Assembly (NCBI GenBank): GCA_016191165.1
Contig: JACPPF010000007.1
Location: forward strand, 1-56,083
From: Planctomycetota bacterium
GTDB taxonomy: Bacteria > Planctomycetota > Planctomycetia > Gemmatales > Gemmataceae
Reading direction: 5' to 3'
DNA length: 56,083 nt
Made by a program: the position numbers and the translations under genes. Below, piece after piece: positions 5,933 through 48,774 of the stretch (positions are counted from its first letter, which is position 1; each line of letters begins with the position of its first letter). The notes beneath the pieces are model-generated. The model was not told the origin of the DNA. It saw nothing but the letters and a program-made list of their open reading frames with translations, and did not search any database.

Positions 5933-5962
5933 TCAGCCGTCGCGGGGTCTTTTGGTTTCGAT

Positions 5963-16160: not shown

Positions 16161-16226
16161 GTTTAGCCGCACGCCTTTGGCGTGCGCGCCGTGAAGTGCC
16201 CGCACGCCAAAGGCGTGCGGCTAAAC
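16161..16226. repeat. Palindromic repeat, GTTTAGCCGC family, copy 1 (perfect 26-bp arms)
   Basis: The arms at 16,161-16,186 and 16,201-16,226 are exact complements, and each arm folds on itself (CGCACGCC, TTT, GGCGTGCG). It lies six bases after the coiled-coil gene and ten before the convergent exported-protein gene, a position suited to bidirectional termination. Confidence 0.85.
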
Positions 16227-18510: not shown

Positions 18511-18584
18511 GGTTGAAAGCTCCAGGGAATGGAGGATTCCTGGTTATCATACGGCGCGCGGCGACATTTGACTTGCCCGCATTT

Positions 18585-18651
18585 GTTTAGCCGCTCGCCT
18601 TGGGCGAGCACGGTCGCGAAGGCCGCGCTCGCCCAAGGCAAGCGGCTAAAC
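18585..18651. repeat. Palindromic repeat, GTTTAGCCGC family, copy 2
   Basis: The arms begin GTTTAGCCGCTCGCCTTGGG and end with the complementary CGGCTAAAC, with one mismatch over 25 bp. It lies between divergent guaB and hom, ending 12 bp before the hom start, so it would be in the hom leader transcript. Confidence 0.85.
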
Positions 18652-18663
18652 GTGGTTTTCCCT

Positions 18664-20034
18664 ATGATTGAATTCATGGAACCCCTCGGTATCGCCTTGA
18701 TCGGTTACGGCACGGTCGGCAGCGGCGTGGCAAGGTTGTTGCTGGATCATCCGGAGCGTCTGGCCGCCCGCGCCGGGCGCCGGCTGGAGCTGCGCCATGT
18801 CGTCGTCCGCGATCTGAACAAGCCGCGCGAACCGGACGTTGCGCCAGCGCTGCTCACCAGCGATCTGCGCCAGGTGATCGATGATCCAGGCGTACACGTC
18901 GCAGTCGAAGTCGTCGGCGGCATCGACTGGGCCAGGCGAGCCGTGCTCGATCTGCTCGCCGCGGGCAAGCACGTCGTCACCGCGAACAAGGCCCTGCTCG
19001 CCACCCACGGCGCGGAAATCTTTGACGCCGGGCGAAAGCATGGCCGCGCCATCGCGTTCGAGGCGTCGGTCGGCGGCGGCATCCCGATCATCAACGCCCT
19101 GTGCCAGGGCCTGGCGGCCAACCAGATCCTGTCGCTTCAGGGCATTCTCAACGGGACGTGCAACTTCATCCTCACCGGGATGATCGAGCTGGGCCGAAGC
19201 TACCGCGACGTACTGGCCGAGGCGCAGTCGAAGGGCTACGCCGAGGCCGACCCGACCATGGACGTGGACGGGACCGACTCGGCCCACAAGCTTGCCATCC
19301 TCGTGCAGATCGCCTTTGGCATTGCGTTACCGCTTTCCGCCATTCAGCGCCGTGGCATCGCCGACATCGATCAACTCGACATCCGCTTCGCCCGCGAACT
19401 GGGCTACACGATCAAACTGCTGGCGGAGGCGTGGCTGTTGCAGGAGAATCCCCCCCTCACCCCCAGCCCATCTCCCAGAGGGAGCGGGGAGGAAATGCAA
19501 CTGGCCCTCCACGTGTCGCCGGTGATGCTCAGGCAAAGCGCGCCGCTGGCGCTGGTGCGCGACGCGTACAATGCGCTCTTCGTCGTTGGAGATGCCGTTG
19601 GCAACACGCTGTACTATGGTCGCGGCGCCGGGCAGATGCCGACCGCCAGCGCCGTGGTCGCCGATCTGATCGACATGGCCGTCGGGCGGGCGCAGCAGAC
19701 GTTTCAAAGCTTGCGGCTCTGGTCGGGCAATCACGGTCCCGTTGTGCTACGCGATCCCAGTACGATGCGGAGCCGATTTTACCTGCGCATGATGGTCGAG
19801 GACCGCCCCGGCGTCATGGCGGACATCACCCGCATCCTGGCGAATCACCGGATCAGCATCTCGTCGGTCATCCAGCACGAGGCGCTTGACCACGGCGACG
19901 AGGAGATCGAGATCGTGCCGCTCATCATCATGACGCACACCGTGACGACGGGCAGTTTCAACGACGCCCTGGCGGAGATCGACGCCCTCAAGAGCGTTCG
20001 CCCACCCAGTGTCTACTACCCCGTGGGCGATTAA
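18664..20034 (+). CDS. hom: Homoserine dehydrogenase with C-terminal ACT domain and in-frame repeat insertion
   Basis: 456 residues from ATG 18,664 (ATG 18,676 is equally possible). It reduces aspartate semialdehyde to homoserine for Thr and Met synthesis. The NAD(P) loop is IALIGYGTVGSGVA (10-23), TANKALLA at 107-114, and the catalytic region is ILNGTCNFILTGM (161-173) with Lys in GTDSAHKLAIL (203-213). An ACT domain occupies about 375-450 (YLRMMVEDRPGVMADITRIL). Residues 262-277 (PPLTPSPSPRGSGEEM region) are Pro/Gly/Ser-rich, absent from normal family members, and encoded by a palindromic repeat that is also found in trpA and the ThuA-like gene. The insertion lies between the catalytic and C-terminal parts and is probably tolerated as a surface loop. 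Confidence 0.95.
   Translation: MIEFMEPLGIALIGYGTVGSGVARLLLDHPERLAARAGRRLELRHVVVRDLNKPREPDVAPALLTSDLRQVIDDPGVHVAVEVVGGIDWARRAVLDLLAAGKHVVTANKALLATHGAEIFDAGRKHGRAIAFEASVGGGIPIINALCQGLAANQILSLQGILNGTCNFILTGMIELGRSYRDVLAEAQSKGYAEADPTMDVDGTDSAHKLAILVQIAFGIALPLSAIQRRGIADIDQLDIRFARELGYTIKLLAEAWLLQENPPLTPSPSPRGSGEEMQLALHVSPVMLRQSAPLALVRDAYNALFVVGDAVGNTLYYGRGAGQMPTASAVVADLIDMAVGRAQQTFQSLRLWSGNHGPVVLRDPSTMRSRFYLRMMVEDRPGVMADITRILANHRISISSVIQHEALDHGDEEIEIVPLIIMTHTVTTGSFNDALAEIDALKSVRPPSVYYPVGD
19451..19492. repeat. Protein-coding palindromic repeat (CCCTCTCCC/GGGAGAGGG family), copy in hom
   Basis: CCCATCTCCCAGAGGGAGCGGGG is the core, with CCCCTCACCCCC before it. It stays in frame and adds about 15 codons to hom. 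The same consensus is at 30,645 (trpA) and 41,272 (ThuA-like gene). Confidence 0.8.
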
Positions 20035-24919: not shown

Positions 24920-24981
24920 GTTTAGCCGGTCGCCTTCGGCGAGCGCGACGCTCGCGCACGCCGAAGGCGTTGCGGCTCAAC
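24920..24981. repeat. Palindromic repeat, GTTTAGCC family, copy 3 (diverged)
   Basis: GTTTAGCCGGTCGCCTTCGG pairs with CCGAAGGCGTTGCGGCTCAAC, with several mismatches. It spans the end of mutM, encoding that protein's tail, and reaches to within 12 bp of the kinase start. Confidence 0.7.
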
Positions 24982-25860: not shown

Positions 25861-25886
25861 GTTTAGCCGCTCGCCTTTGGCGAGCG
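25861..25886. repeat. Palindromic repeat, GTTTAGCCGC family, copy 4 (single arm)
   Basis: One arm (GTTTAGCCGCTCGCCTTTGG then CGAGCG) folds as a small hairpin and is followed at once by AAGGGGG, the probable ribosome binding site of the transposase. The partner arm is absent on this side. Confidence 0.8.
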
Positions 25887-25901
25887 TGAAGGGGGCATGG
25901 C

Positions 25902-26510
25902 GTGGTCCTTGCTCATCATCTCATTTTCACGGCTTACGGTTTCTGGCTGCCGAACGATCCGCGCGGCTCATGGTCTGATTTTGTCGGCTCGTGGGATTTG
26001 CTGCGCTATGGCAAAGCCACCAAGACGACGACGCGCCGCTCCGTCGCCGGGGTTCCCCACGACCGGGAACTTCGTGAACAGGCCAAGAGGGCCTTGAAAA
26101 ACCCTCCGGTGCAATTCTCGGACGCCCAGATTCAAGCGGTTGGCCAGGGCATTGCCGAATCGGCTCGTAAGGGCGACCTCAAGATATGGGCGTGTGCCGT
26201 AATGTCCGATCACATTCACCTCGTGGTGGCGCGACATCGATGCCTGGCTGAACAGATCATCAATCTCACGAAGGGAGCGATAACCAGAAAATTGCTGGAC
26301 CTGGAATTGCACCCATTTCAAACGCTCGCTGGCAATCATACCCGCGTGCCCACATGCTGGGCGGCCAAGGGATGGAAGGTATTTCTCGATCGGATCGAGG
26401 ATATCCAGCGGGCGATCGCGTATGTTAACAACAATCCAATCAAGGAAGACCTACCGGCCCAGTTGTGGGATTTTGTCACGCCGTTTGACCCGAATATTGA
26501 AGGCGTTTAG
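25902..26510 (+). CDS. REP-associated tyrosine transposase (RAYT, Y1/IS200-like)
   Basis: 202 residues from GTG 25,902, which follows the AAGGGGG stretch. An out-of-frame ATG at 25,897 gives no protein. The N-terminal block [19 protein letters not shown] is the hallmark of this transposase branch. The two-His metal site is in [13 protein letters not shown] (about 105-117), and [23 protein letters not shown] (about 168-190) is the C-terminal block with the catalytic Tyr in AYVNNNP. It cuts and joins single-stranded hairpin DNA. Its last two codons and stop (GGC GTT TAG) come from the downstream palindrome. The gene looks intact. Confidence 0.9.
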
Positions 26511-26566
26511 CCGCTCGCCTTTGGCGAGCGTTCTACACCGCGCTCGCCAGAGGCGAGCGGCTAAAC
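26505..26566. repeat. Palindromic repeat, GTTTAGCCGC family, copy 5
   Basis: The arms at 26,505-26,530 and 26,541-26,566 are complementary except for one base. It overlaps the transposase stop codon and ends eight bases before the trpB start, so it forms the trpB leader. Confidence 0.88.
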
Positions 26567-26574
26567 GAATAAAA

Positions 26575-27774
26575 ATGTCAGCAATCCCCGATGCCACCGG
26601 CCGCTTCGGCCCCTATGGCGGACGCTATGTTCCTGAAACCCTGATGCACGCGCTGCGACAACTGTCCGAGCACTACGACGCGGCGTGCGCGGATCCGGAA
26701 TTTCAAAAACACCTCGATTACTATTTGCACCATTACGTCGGCCGGCCGTCGCCGCTCTATTTTGCTGAACGGTTGACCAAGTACGCCGGCGGCGCCCGCA
26801 TCTTCCTCAAACGCGAGGACCTCAACCATACCGGCGCCCACAAGATTAACAACTGCATCGGCCAGGCGCTCTTGTGTAAGCGCATGGGCAAACCGAGGAT
26901 CATCGCGGAAACCGGCGCCGGGCAGCATGGTGTCGCCACCGCGACGGCCGCGGCGTTGTTCGGGTTCCAGTGCCAGGTTTACATGGGTGAGGAAGACGTG
27001 CGCCGGCAAAAGCTCAACGTCTTCAAGATGCGCGCCCTCGGAACCGACGTCGTCTCCGTCACCAGCGGCAGCCGAACCCTGCGCGACGCCATCAACGAGG
27101 CCATGCGCGACTGGATGGCGTCGGTCGAGACCACGCACTACATCATCGGCAGCGTCGTCGGCCCACACCCCTTCCCGATGATGGTCCGCGATTTCCAGGC
27201 CGTCATCGGCAAGGAGACCAAACAGCAATGCCACGACCAAATAGGCAGATTGCCTGATGTCGTCGTCGCCTGCGTCGGCGGCGGGTCGAATGCCGCGGGC
27301 ATGTTCCATCCCTTCGTCGGCGATCACGACGTGGAACTCGTCGGCGTCGAAGCCGGCGGCCGCGGAACGAAGGAAGGCGAGCACGCATCCACCTTGAGCC
27401 ACGGCAAGCCCGGCGTCCTCCACGGCTCGATGAGCTACGTCCTGCAAGACAACGACGGCCAAACCGCCAACGTCCACAGCGTCTCCGCAGGCCTCGACTA
27501 CCCCGGCGTCGGCCCCGAGCACAGCTACTGGAAAGACACGAATCGCGTCGTTTATACGCACGTCAACGACGCCGACGCCCTCCAGGCCTTTTCCCTGTGC
27601 AGCAAGCTCGAAGGCATCCTCCCCGCGCTGGAGACCTCGCACGCCATTGTCGAAGCCGTCCGCCTCGCCGCCAGGCGCAGCCATCAGGATGTCGTGGTCG
27701 TGTCCTTCTCGGGCCGGGGCGACAAGGATTGCTTCGAGGTGGCGCGGTTGCTGGGGGAGGAGATTGCGGAATGA
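26575..27774 (+). CDS. trpB: Tryptophan synthase beta chain
   Basis: 399 residues from ATG 26,575 ([21 protein letters not shown]). It joins indole and serine with pyridoxal phosphate. [12 protein letters not shown] and the PLP-lysine block [18 protein letters not shown] (about 82-99) are followed by [19 protein letters not shown], the phosphate-binding [12 protein letters not shown], and [11 protein letters not shown] near the end. An upstream in-frame extension to 26,422 overlaps the transposase and is an artefact. The ribosome binding site is poor (AATAAAA), which may reflect insertion of the repeat just before the start. trpA, normally adjacent, is 2.6 kb downstream beyond a restriction-modification system. 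Confidence 0.97.
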
Positions 27775-27807
27775 ATCGTCCGCAATGCCGAAACCGTCGC
27801 TCCCTTA

Positions 27808-27813
27808 TATAAT
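27808..27813 (+). promoter_or_regulatory. Candidate -10 box for the restriction-modification genes
   Basis: An exact TATAAT lies 47 bp before the methyltransferase ATG, just after trpB. The -35 region is weak (TGCCGA at about 27,786). It suggests the inserted genes have their own promoter rather than depending on trpB. Confidence 0.45.
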
Positions 27814-27859
27814 GGGCGCATGTTCAGGTTTTCTTGTTTTGCATCACCGAGGAATCGCG

Positions 27860-28924
27860 ATGGAAACATTAATCGATTCAGTCCTACCCTCGCGAATTCG
27901 CCGTTACCTTTCATCTGACGATCGCAGTCCACTCTTCTTGGCTGGCGATTCGCTAGAGTTAATGCGATCGTTTCCGACTGCGTGTATTGACTGTTGCATG
28001 ACCAGTCCGCCATACTGGGGCCAACGTTCTTATTCCGACGGCGGGATTGGACTTGAAACTTTTCCCCAAGATTACATCAAACACCTCGTGCAGATTTCTC
28101 GCGAGATCAAGCGTGTGTTGAGGCCAACTGGTTCTTTCTGGCTCAACATTGGCGACGCCTACGACAAGAAATCCCTCCTGGGCCTCCCGTGGAGAATTGC
28201 AATCGCCTTGATGGACCAGCAAGGGTGGATCCTCCGGAACAGCGTCGTCTGGAACAAGGTGAAGGGAGGGCTAGATAACTCCAAAGACAAACTGCGAAAT
28301 GTTCATGAGCCTGTTTTTCATTTCGTCGCATCCGGCGACTATTATTACGATGTCGATGCTATCCGAAATAAGCCCGGCCAAACTAAAATCGTGAATGGTT
28401 CCGTGGTTTCGGCAACGGGAGTGTCAGGTGTTCGCTACCGTCGTCAGATTGAACTATCTACGGCCTTGACGGACGCAGAAAAGGCGACGGCTTTCCGCGC
28501 CTTGGATGAGATCTTGACTGAAGTTCGCGCGGGGAACTTGACGGATTTTCGAATGATTATCCGGGGCCAACAGCGCGTTACACATTCGGATTCGGACAGG
28601 GTTTCTGGACGGGCGCGTGAGATTTCTGAAAAAGGCTTCTACTTCCTAAAATACGACCCGAACGGAAGCAAACCGAGCGATGTATGGGATATCCTTCCCG
28701 AGGACACGCAAAAACGCAGGTTGCATTTCGCCCCCTATCCAGAAGATTTGTGTAAAATTCCCATTCTTGCAACCTGTCCGGAAAATGGCATCGTTCTCGA
28801 TCCGTTTGCCGGCACGGGTACGACAAATTTGGCGGCATTCCACCTCGGCAGAAAATCCGTTGGAATCGATATTTCAAAGGAGTATTTGCTTGCCGCGCGG
28901 GAAAGGTGCAGGCTGCTACTATGA
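27860..28924 (+). CDS. Type II DNA methyltransferase (SPPY motif; N4-cytosine/N6-adenine type)
   Basis: 354 residues from ATG 27,860, with GAGGAA upstream. The catalytic motif IV is MTSPPYWGQRS (47-57); SPPY favours N4-methylcytosine but does not prove it. LRPTGSFWLNIGDAYD follows, and motif I DPFAGTGTT with VGIDIS is near the C-terminus (about 314-336), so the motifs are in the permuted beta-type order. A central region (about 170-250) is the likely target recognition domain. The gene overlaps the next by four bases (ATGA). Base use is visibly AT-richer and less third-position GC-biased than trpB, a sign of horizontal transfer. It should protect the host from the adjoining nuclease. Confidence 0.93.
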   Translation: METLIDSVLPSRIRRYLSSDDRSPLFLAGDSLELMRSFPTACIDCCMTSPPYWGQRSYSDGGIGLETFPQDYIKHLVQISREIKRVLRPTGSFWLNIGDAYDKKSLLGLPWRIAIALMDQQGWILRNSVVWNKVKGGLDNSKDKLRNVHEPVFHFVASGDYYYDVDAIRNKPGQTKIVNGSVVSATGVSGVRYRRQIELSTALTDAEKATAFRALDEILTEVRAGNLTDFRMIIRGQQRVTHSDSDRVSGRAREISEKGFYFLKYDPNGSKPSDVWDILPEDTQKRRLHFAPYPEDLCKIPILATCPENGIVLDPFAGTGTTNLAAFHLGRKSVGIDISKEYLLAARERCRLLL

Positions 28925-29802
28925 CCAAAGTTGCTGAACTTTACGGATTACCCACGCACCAGCCGGCGGATTGGAAAACCATTGCCGAGTCACAGCAATG
29001 CCCGTTTCTCGGCCGCAAATGTTTGAAAAATCGCAAAAGCGAACCGGAATTCACGATCGGCACCTGTACGATGACCTACGGCAAGGCTTCGCACCCTACG
29101 ATGATTTGCCCTTATCGTTTGCTGGAGCGGAGTCAGATTTTTCTCGATTGCATCCATTTGCTCGCCCTTCACGAACCAGGCAACGAGCTTCGTATTATCG
29201 CGGAACTCAATGTCCCGGGGGGAAGCGTTGACTTTTGCCTGATTTCAGTTCGGGACAAGAAACCGTGCGATTTCGTTGGCATCGAACTACAAACTCTCGA
29301 CACGACCGGAACCGTTTGGCCCGAGCGGCAACGATTTCTCAAGGAGCACGGCGTTTCCGTGAAAGGCAAGCACACTCGGTCTGCCAAGCCTTTCGGAATG
29401 AACTGGAAAATGACTGCCAAAACGATCCTGATCCAACTCAACCACAAGATTGAGACCTTCGAACATCTGAGCAAGCGACTTGTACTCGTGCTCCAAGACC
29501 GCCTGCTCGGTTACATGCAAACCGAGTTTTCGTTCGGCCATATCAAGGGTTCGCGCGCCGGCGATCCAATGCATTTTCATTCCTACGAGTTGCACCGAGA
29601 ATCAGCGGCGTTTAAGCTGCAACTCAAGGAGAGGTTGAGCACCGACGCCGCCGGCATCGCGGCATGTCTGGGCCTTCAGGTAAACGCAAGGGTCGAACTA
29701 GCGACGATATTCGCGCAGATTGAAGCGAAGTTGCCTCAGAGTACGTTGCTTACAGTTCAAGGAGGCGCCATTCCTATTCCCCCAAACGAGGCCGAGTCTT
29801 AA
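28921..29802 (+). CDS. NotI-family type II restriction endonuclease
   Basis: 293 residues; ATG 28,921 overlaps the methyltransferase stop, so translation is probably coupled. Four cysteines, CPF (27), C34, TCTM (49) and CPYR (63), match the Cys4 iron-binding fold known for NotI. The nuclease centre is VDFCLISVRD (103-112) with IELQTLDTTG (121-130); Asp104, Glu122 and Gln124 fit the D...ExQ variant of the PD-(D/E)XK site in that family. The rest is helical with basic patches. Together with the preceding gene it forms a complete two-gene type II system. Its recognition site cannot be read from the sequence; a GC-rich octamer would be the family expectation. Confidence 0.85.
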   Translation: MTKVAELYGLPTHQPADWKTIAESQQCPFLGRKCLKNRKSEPEFTIGTCTMTYGKASHPTMICPYRLLERSQIFLDCIHLLALHEPGNELRIIAELNVPGGSVDFCLISVRDKKPCDFVGIELQTLDTTGTVWPERQRFLKEHGVSVKGKHTRSAKPFGMNWKMTAKTILIQLNHKIETFEHLSKRLVLVLQDRLLGYMQTEFSFGHIKGSRAGDPMHFHSYELHRESAAFKLQLKERLSTDAAGIAACLGLQVNARVELATIFAQIEAKLPQSTLLTVQGGAIPIPPNEAES

Positions 29803-46692: not shown

Positions 46693-47649
46693 ATGAACAG
46701 CAACAATCAGCTCAAAGTCTTCAGCGGCCGCGCCAATGTGCCGCTGGCGGAGAAAATCGCGCAGTATCTGGGCGATCCGCTCGGCAAGATCGAGTTGAAG
46801 AACTTCCCCGACGGCGAGTTCTGGGCGCGCATCGATGAGGACGTGCGCGGGCGCGATGTTTTCGTGGTGCAATCGACCTGCCATCCGGTCAACGAAAACC
46901 TGATGGAACTGCTGATCATGCTCGACAGCTTCAAGCGCGCCAGCGCCGCCCGCGTCACGGTCGTCTTGCCTTATTACGGGTACGCCCGGCAAGATCGCAA
47001 GGCGGAAGGCCGCGTGCCGATCACCGCGAAACTGGTCGCCAACTTGCTCACGTCCGCCGGGGCGCAGCGCGTGCTGACGCTCGACTTGCACGCGGCACAA
47101 ATTCAGGGCTTCTTCGATATCCCAGTCGATCACCTTTACGCCAGCCCGGTCTTGCTCGATTACGTCTATCGGCTCGGCATTGATCGGCGCGAAATCATTG
47201 TCCTCAGTCCCGACGAAGGCAGCGTCAAGCGGGCGTTGCGCTATCAGAAAAAACTGGACGTCAACATGGCCATTGTCGATAAGCGCCGGGTCAGCGCGGA
47301 CAAGGTCGAGATCGCCAATTTGATCGGCGCGTCGCTCGAAGGCAAGATCGCCTTGATCTTCGACGACATGATCTCCACGGCAGGAACGGTTGTCGGCGCC
47401 GCGCGCACGGCGCGGACGATCGGCAAGGCCAAGGCGGTCTACATTCTGTCCACGCATGGCGTGCTGTGCGGCGACGCCATCAAGAACCTGCGTGAGGCCC
47501 CCGTCGAACGCGTTGCCATCACCGACACGATCCCGCTGACGCCGGAGAAACGGCTGCCCAACATCGACGTCCTGACCGTCGCGGAGTTGCTGGCCGACGG
47601 GATCAAGCGAATTCACTTCAACCAGTCGGTGAGCGAGTTGTTTGTTTAG
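46693..47649 (+). CDS. prs: Ribose-phosphate pyrophosphokinase
   Basis: 318 residues, exactly the class I length. It makes PRPP from ribose 5-phosphate and ATP for purine, pyrimidine, His, Trp and NAD synthesis. The N-terminus LKVFSGRANVPLAEKIA and FPDGEFWARI are followed by the ATP/flexible-loop region PYYGYARQDRKAEGR (about 95-109), the metal site TLDLHAAQIQGFFDIP (about 133-148) and the PRPP-binding loop IFDDMISTAGT (about 220-230). The stop is the TAG of a palindromic repeat beginning GTTTAGCCGC, so the last codon (Val) may also derive from it. It supplies PRPP needed by the pathway that trpA and trpB finish and by purine synthesis (guaB). Confidence 0.97.
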   Translation: MNSNNQLKVFSGRANVPLAEKIAQYLGDPLGKIELKNFPDGEFWARIDEDVRGRDVFVVQSTCHPVNENLMELLIMLDSFKRASAARVTVVLPYYGYARQDRKAEGRVPITAKLVANLLTSAGAQRVLTLDLHAAQIQGFFDIPVDHLYASPVLLDYVYRLGIDRREIIVLSPDEGSVKRALRYQKKLDVNMAIVDKRRVSADKVEIANLIGASLEGKIALIFDDMISTAGTVVGAARTARTIGKAKAVYILSTHGVLCGDAIKNLREAPVERVAITDTIPLTPEKRLPNIDVLTVAELLADGIKRIHFNQSVSELFV

Positions 47650-47705
47650 CCGCTTGCGGCTTGGCGTTCGCACGGCGCCAGGCGAACGCCAAGCCGCTTG
47701 CGGTG
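47644..47705. repeat. Palindromic repeat, AGCGTTCGC family with GTTTAG end, copy 3
   Basis: GTTTAGCCGCTTGCGGCTTG leads to the inverted pair GGCGTTCGC and GCGAACGCC around GGCGCC. It exactly fills the gap between the prs stop (47,649) and the stop of the convergent GTPase gene (47,706). Confidence 0.8.
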
Positions 47706-48711: not shown

Positions 48712-48774
48712 GTTTAGCCGCTCGCCTTGGGCGAGCGATCGCGAACCCCGCTCGCCAGAAGCGAGCGGCTAAAC
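48712..48774. repeat. Palindromic repeat, GTTTAGCCGC family, copy 6
   Basis: GTTTAGCCGCTCGCCTTGGG pairs with CTCGCCAGAAGCGAGCGGC then TAAAC, with a few mismatches. It lies between the exported-protein gene stop (48,782) and the GTPase start (48,698), co-oriented minus-strand genes. Confidence 0.85.

Follow-up and report, generated by a model that had tools for sequence, protein, structure and literature searches.

A single-copy RAYT gene between its own GTTTAGC-headed palindromes in a planctomycete genome

The transposase gene and the repeats of the window

The stretch of DNA analysed here (the window, 56,083 nucleotides) is contig C19 of a planctomycete genome (G000) of 7.23 Mb in 183 contigs that is 95% complete. 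It carries a gene for a RAYT (TnpA_REP-like) transposase with REP palindromes on both sides, and further copies of the palindrome lie elsewhere in the window:

25861..26566, plus strand: REP-RAYT-REPIN unit of 706 bp, sitting in the fpg-trpB gap
25861..25886, plus strand: REP arm upstream of the RAYT gene and left edge of the unit; GTTTAGC followed by a CGCTCGCC/TTT/GGCGAGCG hairpin
25902..26510, plus strand: RAYT gene, 202 aa, GTG start
26505..26566: downstream REPIN and right edge of the unit; plus-strand arm 26505-26530, minus-strand arm 26541-26566
16161..16226, unstranded: dispersed REPIN whose stem carries a compensated change (CCGCACGCC/GGCGTGCG)
18585..18651, unstranded: dispersed REPIN in the gap between an IMP dehydrogenase gene (minus strand) and a homoserine dehydrogenase gene (plus strand)
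24920..24981, unstranded: older REPIN at the fpg 3' end; intact arm 24920-24945, decayed arm 24946-24981
48712..48774, unstranded: dispersed REPIN between two minus-strand genes
47644..47669, plus strand: doubtful copy with a GTTTAGCCGC head; the hairpin is different and decayed

Each REP is a 26-nt arm consisting of an unpaired head of 7 nt (GTTTAGC), an 8-bp stem and a 3-nt TTT loop (folding z of -4.2), and the 62-nt arm pair at 26505-26566 folds into one hairpin of 27 bp. The RAYT gene has a lone REP on its upstream side and a REPIN on its downstream side, and its TAG stop codon sits within the head of the downstream REP. The sequence GTTTAGCCGCTCGCC is found exactly at 25861, 26505, 18585 and 48712 on the plus strand and at 26552 on the minus strand, and with one mismatch at 16161, 16212, 18637, 24920 and 48760; allowing up to three mismatches, the window has 13 matches, compared with 3.08 +/- 1.54 in shuffled sequences, and none of 100 shuffles reached 13. 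The initial annotation of this DNA had placed a Y1 gene between copies of the same hairpin, which agrees with the exact copies at 25861, 26505 and 26552, and the further palindromes that it listed at 16,161, 18,585, 24,920 and 48,712 were all recovered with at most one mismatch. It had also taken the long, double-hairpin arms as a hint of an undescribed class; this argument from length fails because REPs are given as 21-65 nt long (PMC6006769), a range that includes 26 nt, and inverted pairs of such arms are the ordinary anatomy of a REP doublet or REPIN. The head GTTTAGC holds no GTAG or GTGG and thus differs from the GT[A/G]G foot, and the repeats have a transposase of their own and no CGTC tag, unlike members of the CGTC REP super-family. 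Scans of the window for Rfam families and tRNAs gave no hits, which means that the repeats do not belong to a catalogued RNA, and a literature search with the arm sequence returned unrelated papers only. The REPIN at 18585..18651 overlaps only an over-long ORF (18529-20034) whose Pfam match starts at residue 59, and that at 24920..24981 provides the final codons and the TAA stop of fpg.

The predicted protein has the HUH residues H104/H106 and a catalytic tyrosine, Tyr174, in a YxxxNP motif (YVNNNP); H104, H106, Y174, N178 and P179 do not vary across 29 aligned proteins of the clade described below. It lies just above the cut-off of the Pfam Y1_Tnp model, reaches 47.2 bits with NCBIfam NF047646 (REP-associated tyrosine transposase), which is below the curated cut-off of 80, and scores 22 bits with the NCBIfam IS200 model, under the cut-off and below its REP-transposase score. 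The long N-terminal insert carries a 14-residue signature, and the AlphaFold model has a pLDDT of 78, residues 18-50 being poor. A fold search with this model retrieved the TnpA proteins of ISDra2 and IS608 (Z 12 each) and the E. coli RAYT-REP complex 4er8 (Z 10.8), the latter with 119 residues aligned over 1-189, the longest stretch among the matched RAYT, ISDra2 and IS608 families; matches to Thg1 were put aside as a shared core fold. A sequence search of solved structures gave chance matches only, a plasmid search with the protein detected no relative, and no tnpB was seen beside the gene. The gene is present in a single copy in the genome (one match of full identity, the next best at 33%).

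The repeat population in the genome and its relatives

A genome-wide count of the arm, the check proposed in the initial annotation, came out in favour of a dispersed family: the 15-nt arm core occurs 213 times with at most one mismatch vs 4 times for the reversed control, and the full 26-mer 206 times with at most three mismatches vs 0 for the control. Counted by two spacing patterns, 67 head-out pairs are present. The gene context of the repeats was established in 658 kb of the genome (11 contigs) with a home-made gene finder that gave 87% coding sequence and rough gene starts. Here, 60 arms (at most two mismatches) occupy 42 sites, made up of 16 clean head-out pairs, one triple and 25 singles, and 30 of the 42 sites are intergenic vs 13% of the bases (binomial p 1e-17); some of the 12 sites scored as inside genes reflect over-long gene starts, as for 18585-18651. 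At 6 or 7 sites, one of which involves a doubtful ORF, the stop codon of a gene is exactly the TAG or TAA of a REP head. Such stop codons, read from GTTTAG or CTAAAC, are seen for example at C11:23296, C15:28126 and C3:37240 and at 24920 and 26505 in the window, and represent a small way in which repeats reshape protein ends. The head is nearly invariant (within TTTAG, the A is kept in 57 of 61 arms and the G in 59 of 61), and stem positions vary with partial compensation (T-A to G-C or A-T, C-G to G-C). The base before the head is C in 25 of 43 cases, a weak preference (p 0.0002 before correction for 16 positions) that may mark the insertion site.

We then compared the distribution of gene and repeats in relatives, most of whose genomes are incomplete MAGs, using a stem-blind REPIN pattern (GTTTAGCSG-gap-CSGCTAAAC). 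In a sample of 392 genomes of the phylum, REPINs occur in 8 of the 12 that have a gene of the clade and in none of the 380 that do not (p 4e-14, or 1e-12 minus the genome of the window; these statistics ignore shared ancestry). Among 119 close relatives the figures are 14/21 with the gene vs 9/98 without it (p 9e-8, again ignoring shared ancestry). In genus g17, G069 has both the gene and 62 REPINs, and its congeners G022, G048 and G060 have 9 REPINs each and no gene; these look like remnants. The possibility that the repeats might be equally frequent in relatives without a RAYT, on which the initial annotation had staked its proposal, is thus contradicted by both samples, but the tracking of repeats with gene is imperfect. 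G042 contains 115 near-identical GTTTAG REPINs and no clade gene was found in it. In G005 (423 arms with the stem of the window, of which some 100 or more are exact) and G001 (136 such arms) the clade gene is flanked by another stem, and G006 has 39 arms, mostly decayed, and a sister-clade gene only; none of these three has the orthologue of the window RAYT. The mismatch in G042, G005 and G001 could be accounted for by contigs absent from the assemblies, by recent loss or by a single enzyme acting on two stems, any of which would suffice. The largest number of arms in the genus, 651, belongs to G003, whose orthologue of the window RAYT (L066/L037, 68% identity, the closest relative) has one in-frame stop, which may indicate a pseudogene or an assembly error. 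Outside the genus, the arms are nearly absent from close relatives.

Placement of the protein, head recognition and known systems

In an IQ-TREE phylogeny of 80 Y1 proteins, which did not include L133 (an IS200 reference covering a short region around tnpA of a Salmonella plasmid), the 31 clade members form one group (100/98), and the clade and a sister group of six join, with 97/97 support, the canonical RAYTs, among them E. coli RayT. Outside this assemblage fall the YVxEQ proteins of planctomycetes, assigned to class 3 (PMC6006769) by motif, and IS200 TnpA. The deep branches are long, that of E. coli RayT itself included, and the clade itself is more secure than the branching order. The tree therefore sets the window RAYT beside the canonical RAYTs, and the protein has neither the YxxxQ motif nor the grouping with IS200 that would mark an ordinary IS200/IS605 transposase, the outcome that the initial annotation had named as the one to speak against it. 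The sister group (L057-L062, L147, L169, L170; 35-43% identity) has no [AG]TTTAGC nearby, and several of its members are flanked by palindromes of the GCTAAGCCGCAAGCGGC type, another uncatalogued-looking type.

The clade, for which 44 loci were examined, all in Planctomycetota, has a palindrome of its own at each gene, with different stems and mostly a [G/A]TTTAGC head; genome G305, for example, has four genes of the clade, each with a different stem. [AG]TTTAGC is present on both sides within 260 bp at 27 of the 44 clade loci, at 0 of 9 sister-group loci and at 0 of 32 other Y1 loci (Fisher 7e-11), and 15 of the 44 clade genes have deviating heads such as GTGAAGC, GGTTAGC, GCTTAGC, GGTTCGC and similar. 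In the genome of the window, a RAYT profile matches 14 Y1 genes, and only the window gene adjoins a GTTTAG hairpin; the other 13 have an adjacent palindrome of their own or none. These 14 Y1/HUH loci (including L083, L097, L113, L032-L036 and L110-L115) belong to several classes, most with a flanking palindrome. The repeats that go with L113 and with two canonical RAYTs likewise have many look-alikes in this genome, and palindrome copies at 5959, 34300, 42632, 45467 and 49732 of the window belong to other Y1 genes (types L036, L034 and L083).

In E. coli RAYT, the residues W94, Q95, E100, H101 and R104 have been discussed for the reading of GTAG (PMC6006769). The distance from this tryptophan to the catalytic tyrosine is 21 residues in both the E. 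coli and the window protein (W153 to Y174), and the positions therefore align without gaps; in this comparison by eye, the window RAYT has W153, A154, K159, V160 and D163 at the GTAG-reading positions. L113, a class-2 RAYT in the same genome, retains W-Q...D-H...R, and the repeats on its flanks are GTAG-headed; their type, GTAGGTCAGGCTTTC, has 34 copies (at most one mismatch) in 658 kb. We infer from these few cases that loss of the GTAG reader may be coupled to the change of head.

The locus shares with the REPtrons of E. coli, Stenotrophomonas and Pseudomonas (groups 2 and 3) an HUH motif with a single tyrosine, YxxxNP, one gene copy, a gene between its own REPs, hundreds of dispersed inverted doublets and intergenic placement. 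It differs from them in its head (GTTTAGC, 7 unpaired nt, vs GT[A/G]G), in the reading residues (W-A...K-V...D vs W94-Q95...E100-H101...R104 of E. coli) and in its long N-terminal insert. A GT(A/G)G head was found on all REPs of Nunvar et al. 2010 (PMC2817692), and recognition of REPs in vitro has been studied with a few gammaproteobacterial enzymes, all of GTAG-headed repeats (PMC8266576). The planctomycete setting, the W[T/A] motif and the many-copy atypical palindromes recall the class 3 TnpA_Y1 proteins of Planctomycetes and Acidobacteria (Quentin et al. 2018, PMC6006769), whose N-terminal motif YGxWLPxDxRG is seen in the YVxEQ proteins of the genome of the window. Class 3, however, combines YVxxEQ with a CnGA foot, whereas the window clade combines YxxxNP with GTTTAGC and branches with class 2. 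In the same study, the heads of subclass 2.6 and class 3 needed manual inspection, class 3 being given as CnGA (PMC6006769), and no row of its Table 1 has the combination of W-A and YxxxNP, subclasses 2.1-2.8 being compared by motif only. The TIRYTs/TIRs, as presented in the main text of Di Nocera et al. 2013 (PMC3733652), are similar in having RAYT-like genes and non-GTAG inverted repeats, some of them repeated in the genome; R. baltica is reported there to be rich in them, most REPs are sorted into GTAG and CGTC, and that main text names no GTTTAG tag. Lastly, the TnpA proteins of IS200/IS605 elements (IS608, ISDra2) have in common with the window RAYT the fold, the HUH/Y chemistry and hairpin ends with a 5' guide tetranucleotide, but they have YxxxQ, are multicopy and are often accompanied by tnpB, whereas the window gene is single-copy and lies outside the IS200 clade. 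Judged from the main texts of these papers, the best reading is that the kind of system is known and that what is new is the non-GTAG head together with a RAYT clade that has no entry in the published table of subclasses.

Possible mobility of the unit and competing explanations

Taken together, the single-copy gene, its cognate REPs, the tree, the predicted fold and the co-occurrence in the phylum bear out the proposal of the initial annotation, and the locus is very probably a REP/RAYT system in which an HUH/Tyr enzyme works with its own GTTTAGC-headed hairpins. Most likely, the single-copy Y1 endonuclease would bind the folded single strand of these hairpins and cut next to them via Tyr174, the head acting as a putative guide or recognition sequence, and REPINs would be copied or moved into intergenic gaps during replication or repair. 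Hairpin binding, cleavage and strand transfer are predicted here by analogy with the experiments on TnpA_REP of E. coli, Stenotrophomonas and Marinomonas (PMC8266576).

Mobility of the unit is suggested by differences in its presence or absence between related genomes. In G001, G004 and G006, fpg and trpB are also neighbours, and the gap between them contains neither a RAYT nor a REP of the window type; deleting 25861-26566 leaves an fpg-trpB gap similar in length to theirs, and the junction can be placed only approximately because the flanking bases are too diverged. The orthologous RAYT of G003 adjoins neither fpg nor trpB. The simplest account of this gap being empty in three congeners is that the REP-RAYT-REPIN unit entered it in the genome of the window as a single piece. 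At the fpg 3' end, where the window has its older REPIN, the site is empty in G004, is occupied in G001 by a GTTTAG pair of a different stem that also ends fpg, and holds an unrelated palindrome in G006.

This absence of the unit from the orthologous gap, which means that it has moved at least once, would also be expected of an ordinary IS200/IS605-type insertion sequence, in which the unit is autonomous and the dispersed REPINs are MITE-like internal deletions. Such an explanation would further account for the REPINs having the same ends as the full unit and for the fold common to the window RAYT and the TnpA proteins of IS608 and ISDra2. We nevertheless consider it unlikely, as there is one gene copy for more than 200 arms in the genome, the protein lies outside the IS200 group and has the RAYT-type YxxxNP motif, a second full-length copy was not found in the genome, and the plasmid search detected no relative of the gene.

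It could also be argued that the GTTTAG REPs owe their spread to a different Y1 enzyme encoded in the genome, the window gene being an inert bystander, given the 14 Y1 matches in the genome and the REP families of G042 and G005 that have no matching flanking gene. None of the 13 other Y1 genes adjoins a GTTTAG palindrome, however, each having its own or none, and the canonical-type RAYT L113 has GTAG repeats, making this explanation highly improbable. Slightly less credible still is the idea that the REPs are selected host elements (transcription terminators, or gyrase or nucleoid sites) between two of which the gene landed by chance: they are strong hairpins near gene ends and secondary roles of such kinds are known for REPs (PMC6006769), but throughout the phylum each clade gene lies between palindromes of its own, whose stems differ and whose head is the same, close relatives outside the genus have hardly any of the arms, and the association of 8/12 vs 0/380 speaks against it.

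If the locus is indeed a REP/RAYT system, it is conceivable, although we would put this forward tentatively and do not favour it, that it belongs to a REP super-family of its own, the third after GTAG and CGTC. This would be a Planctomycetota clade, placed between class 3 (YVxEQ) and the class-2 RAYTs, in which the head changed from GTAG to GTTTAGC together with the reading residues and in which, in contrast to the RAYTs known to date, all domesticated and passed on vertically, the unit is still able to jump. RAYTs have been described as single-copy and vertically inherited (PMC8049555), and the empty fpg-trpB site is relevant to the question of whether such units are domesticated in every case. 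With its different head, the clade as a whole offers hundreds of natural stem variants, including the four paralogues of G305 with their different stems, and the canonical GTAG system in the genome of the window serves as an internal control; the reading of head and stem is directly testable by swaps of heads or residues. Just downstream of trpB, at 27647-29802, a DNA N6/N4-methyltransferase gene is followed by a weak match to a NotI-like restriction endonuclease, likely a type II restriction-modification pair.
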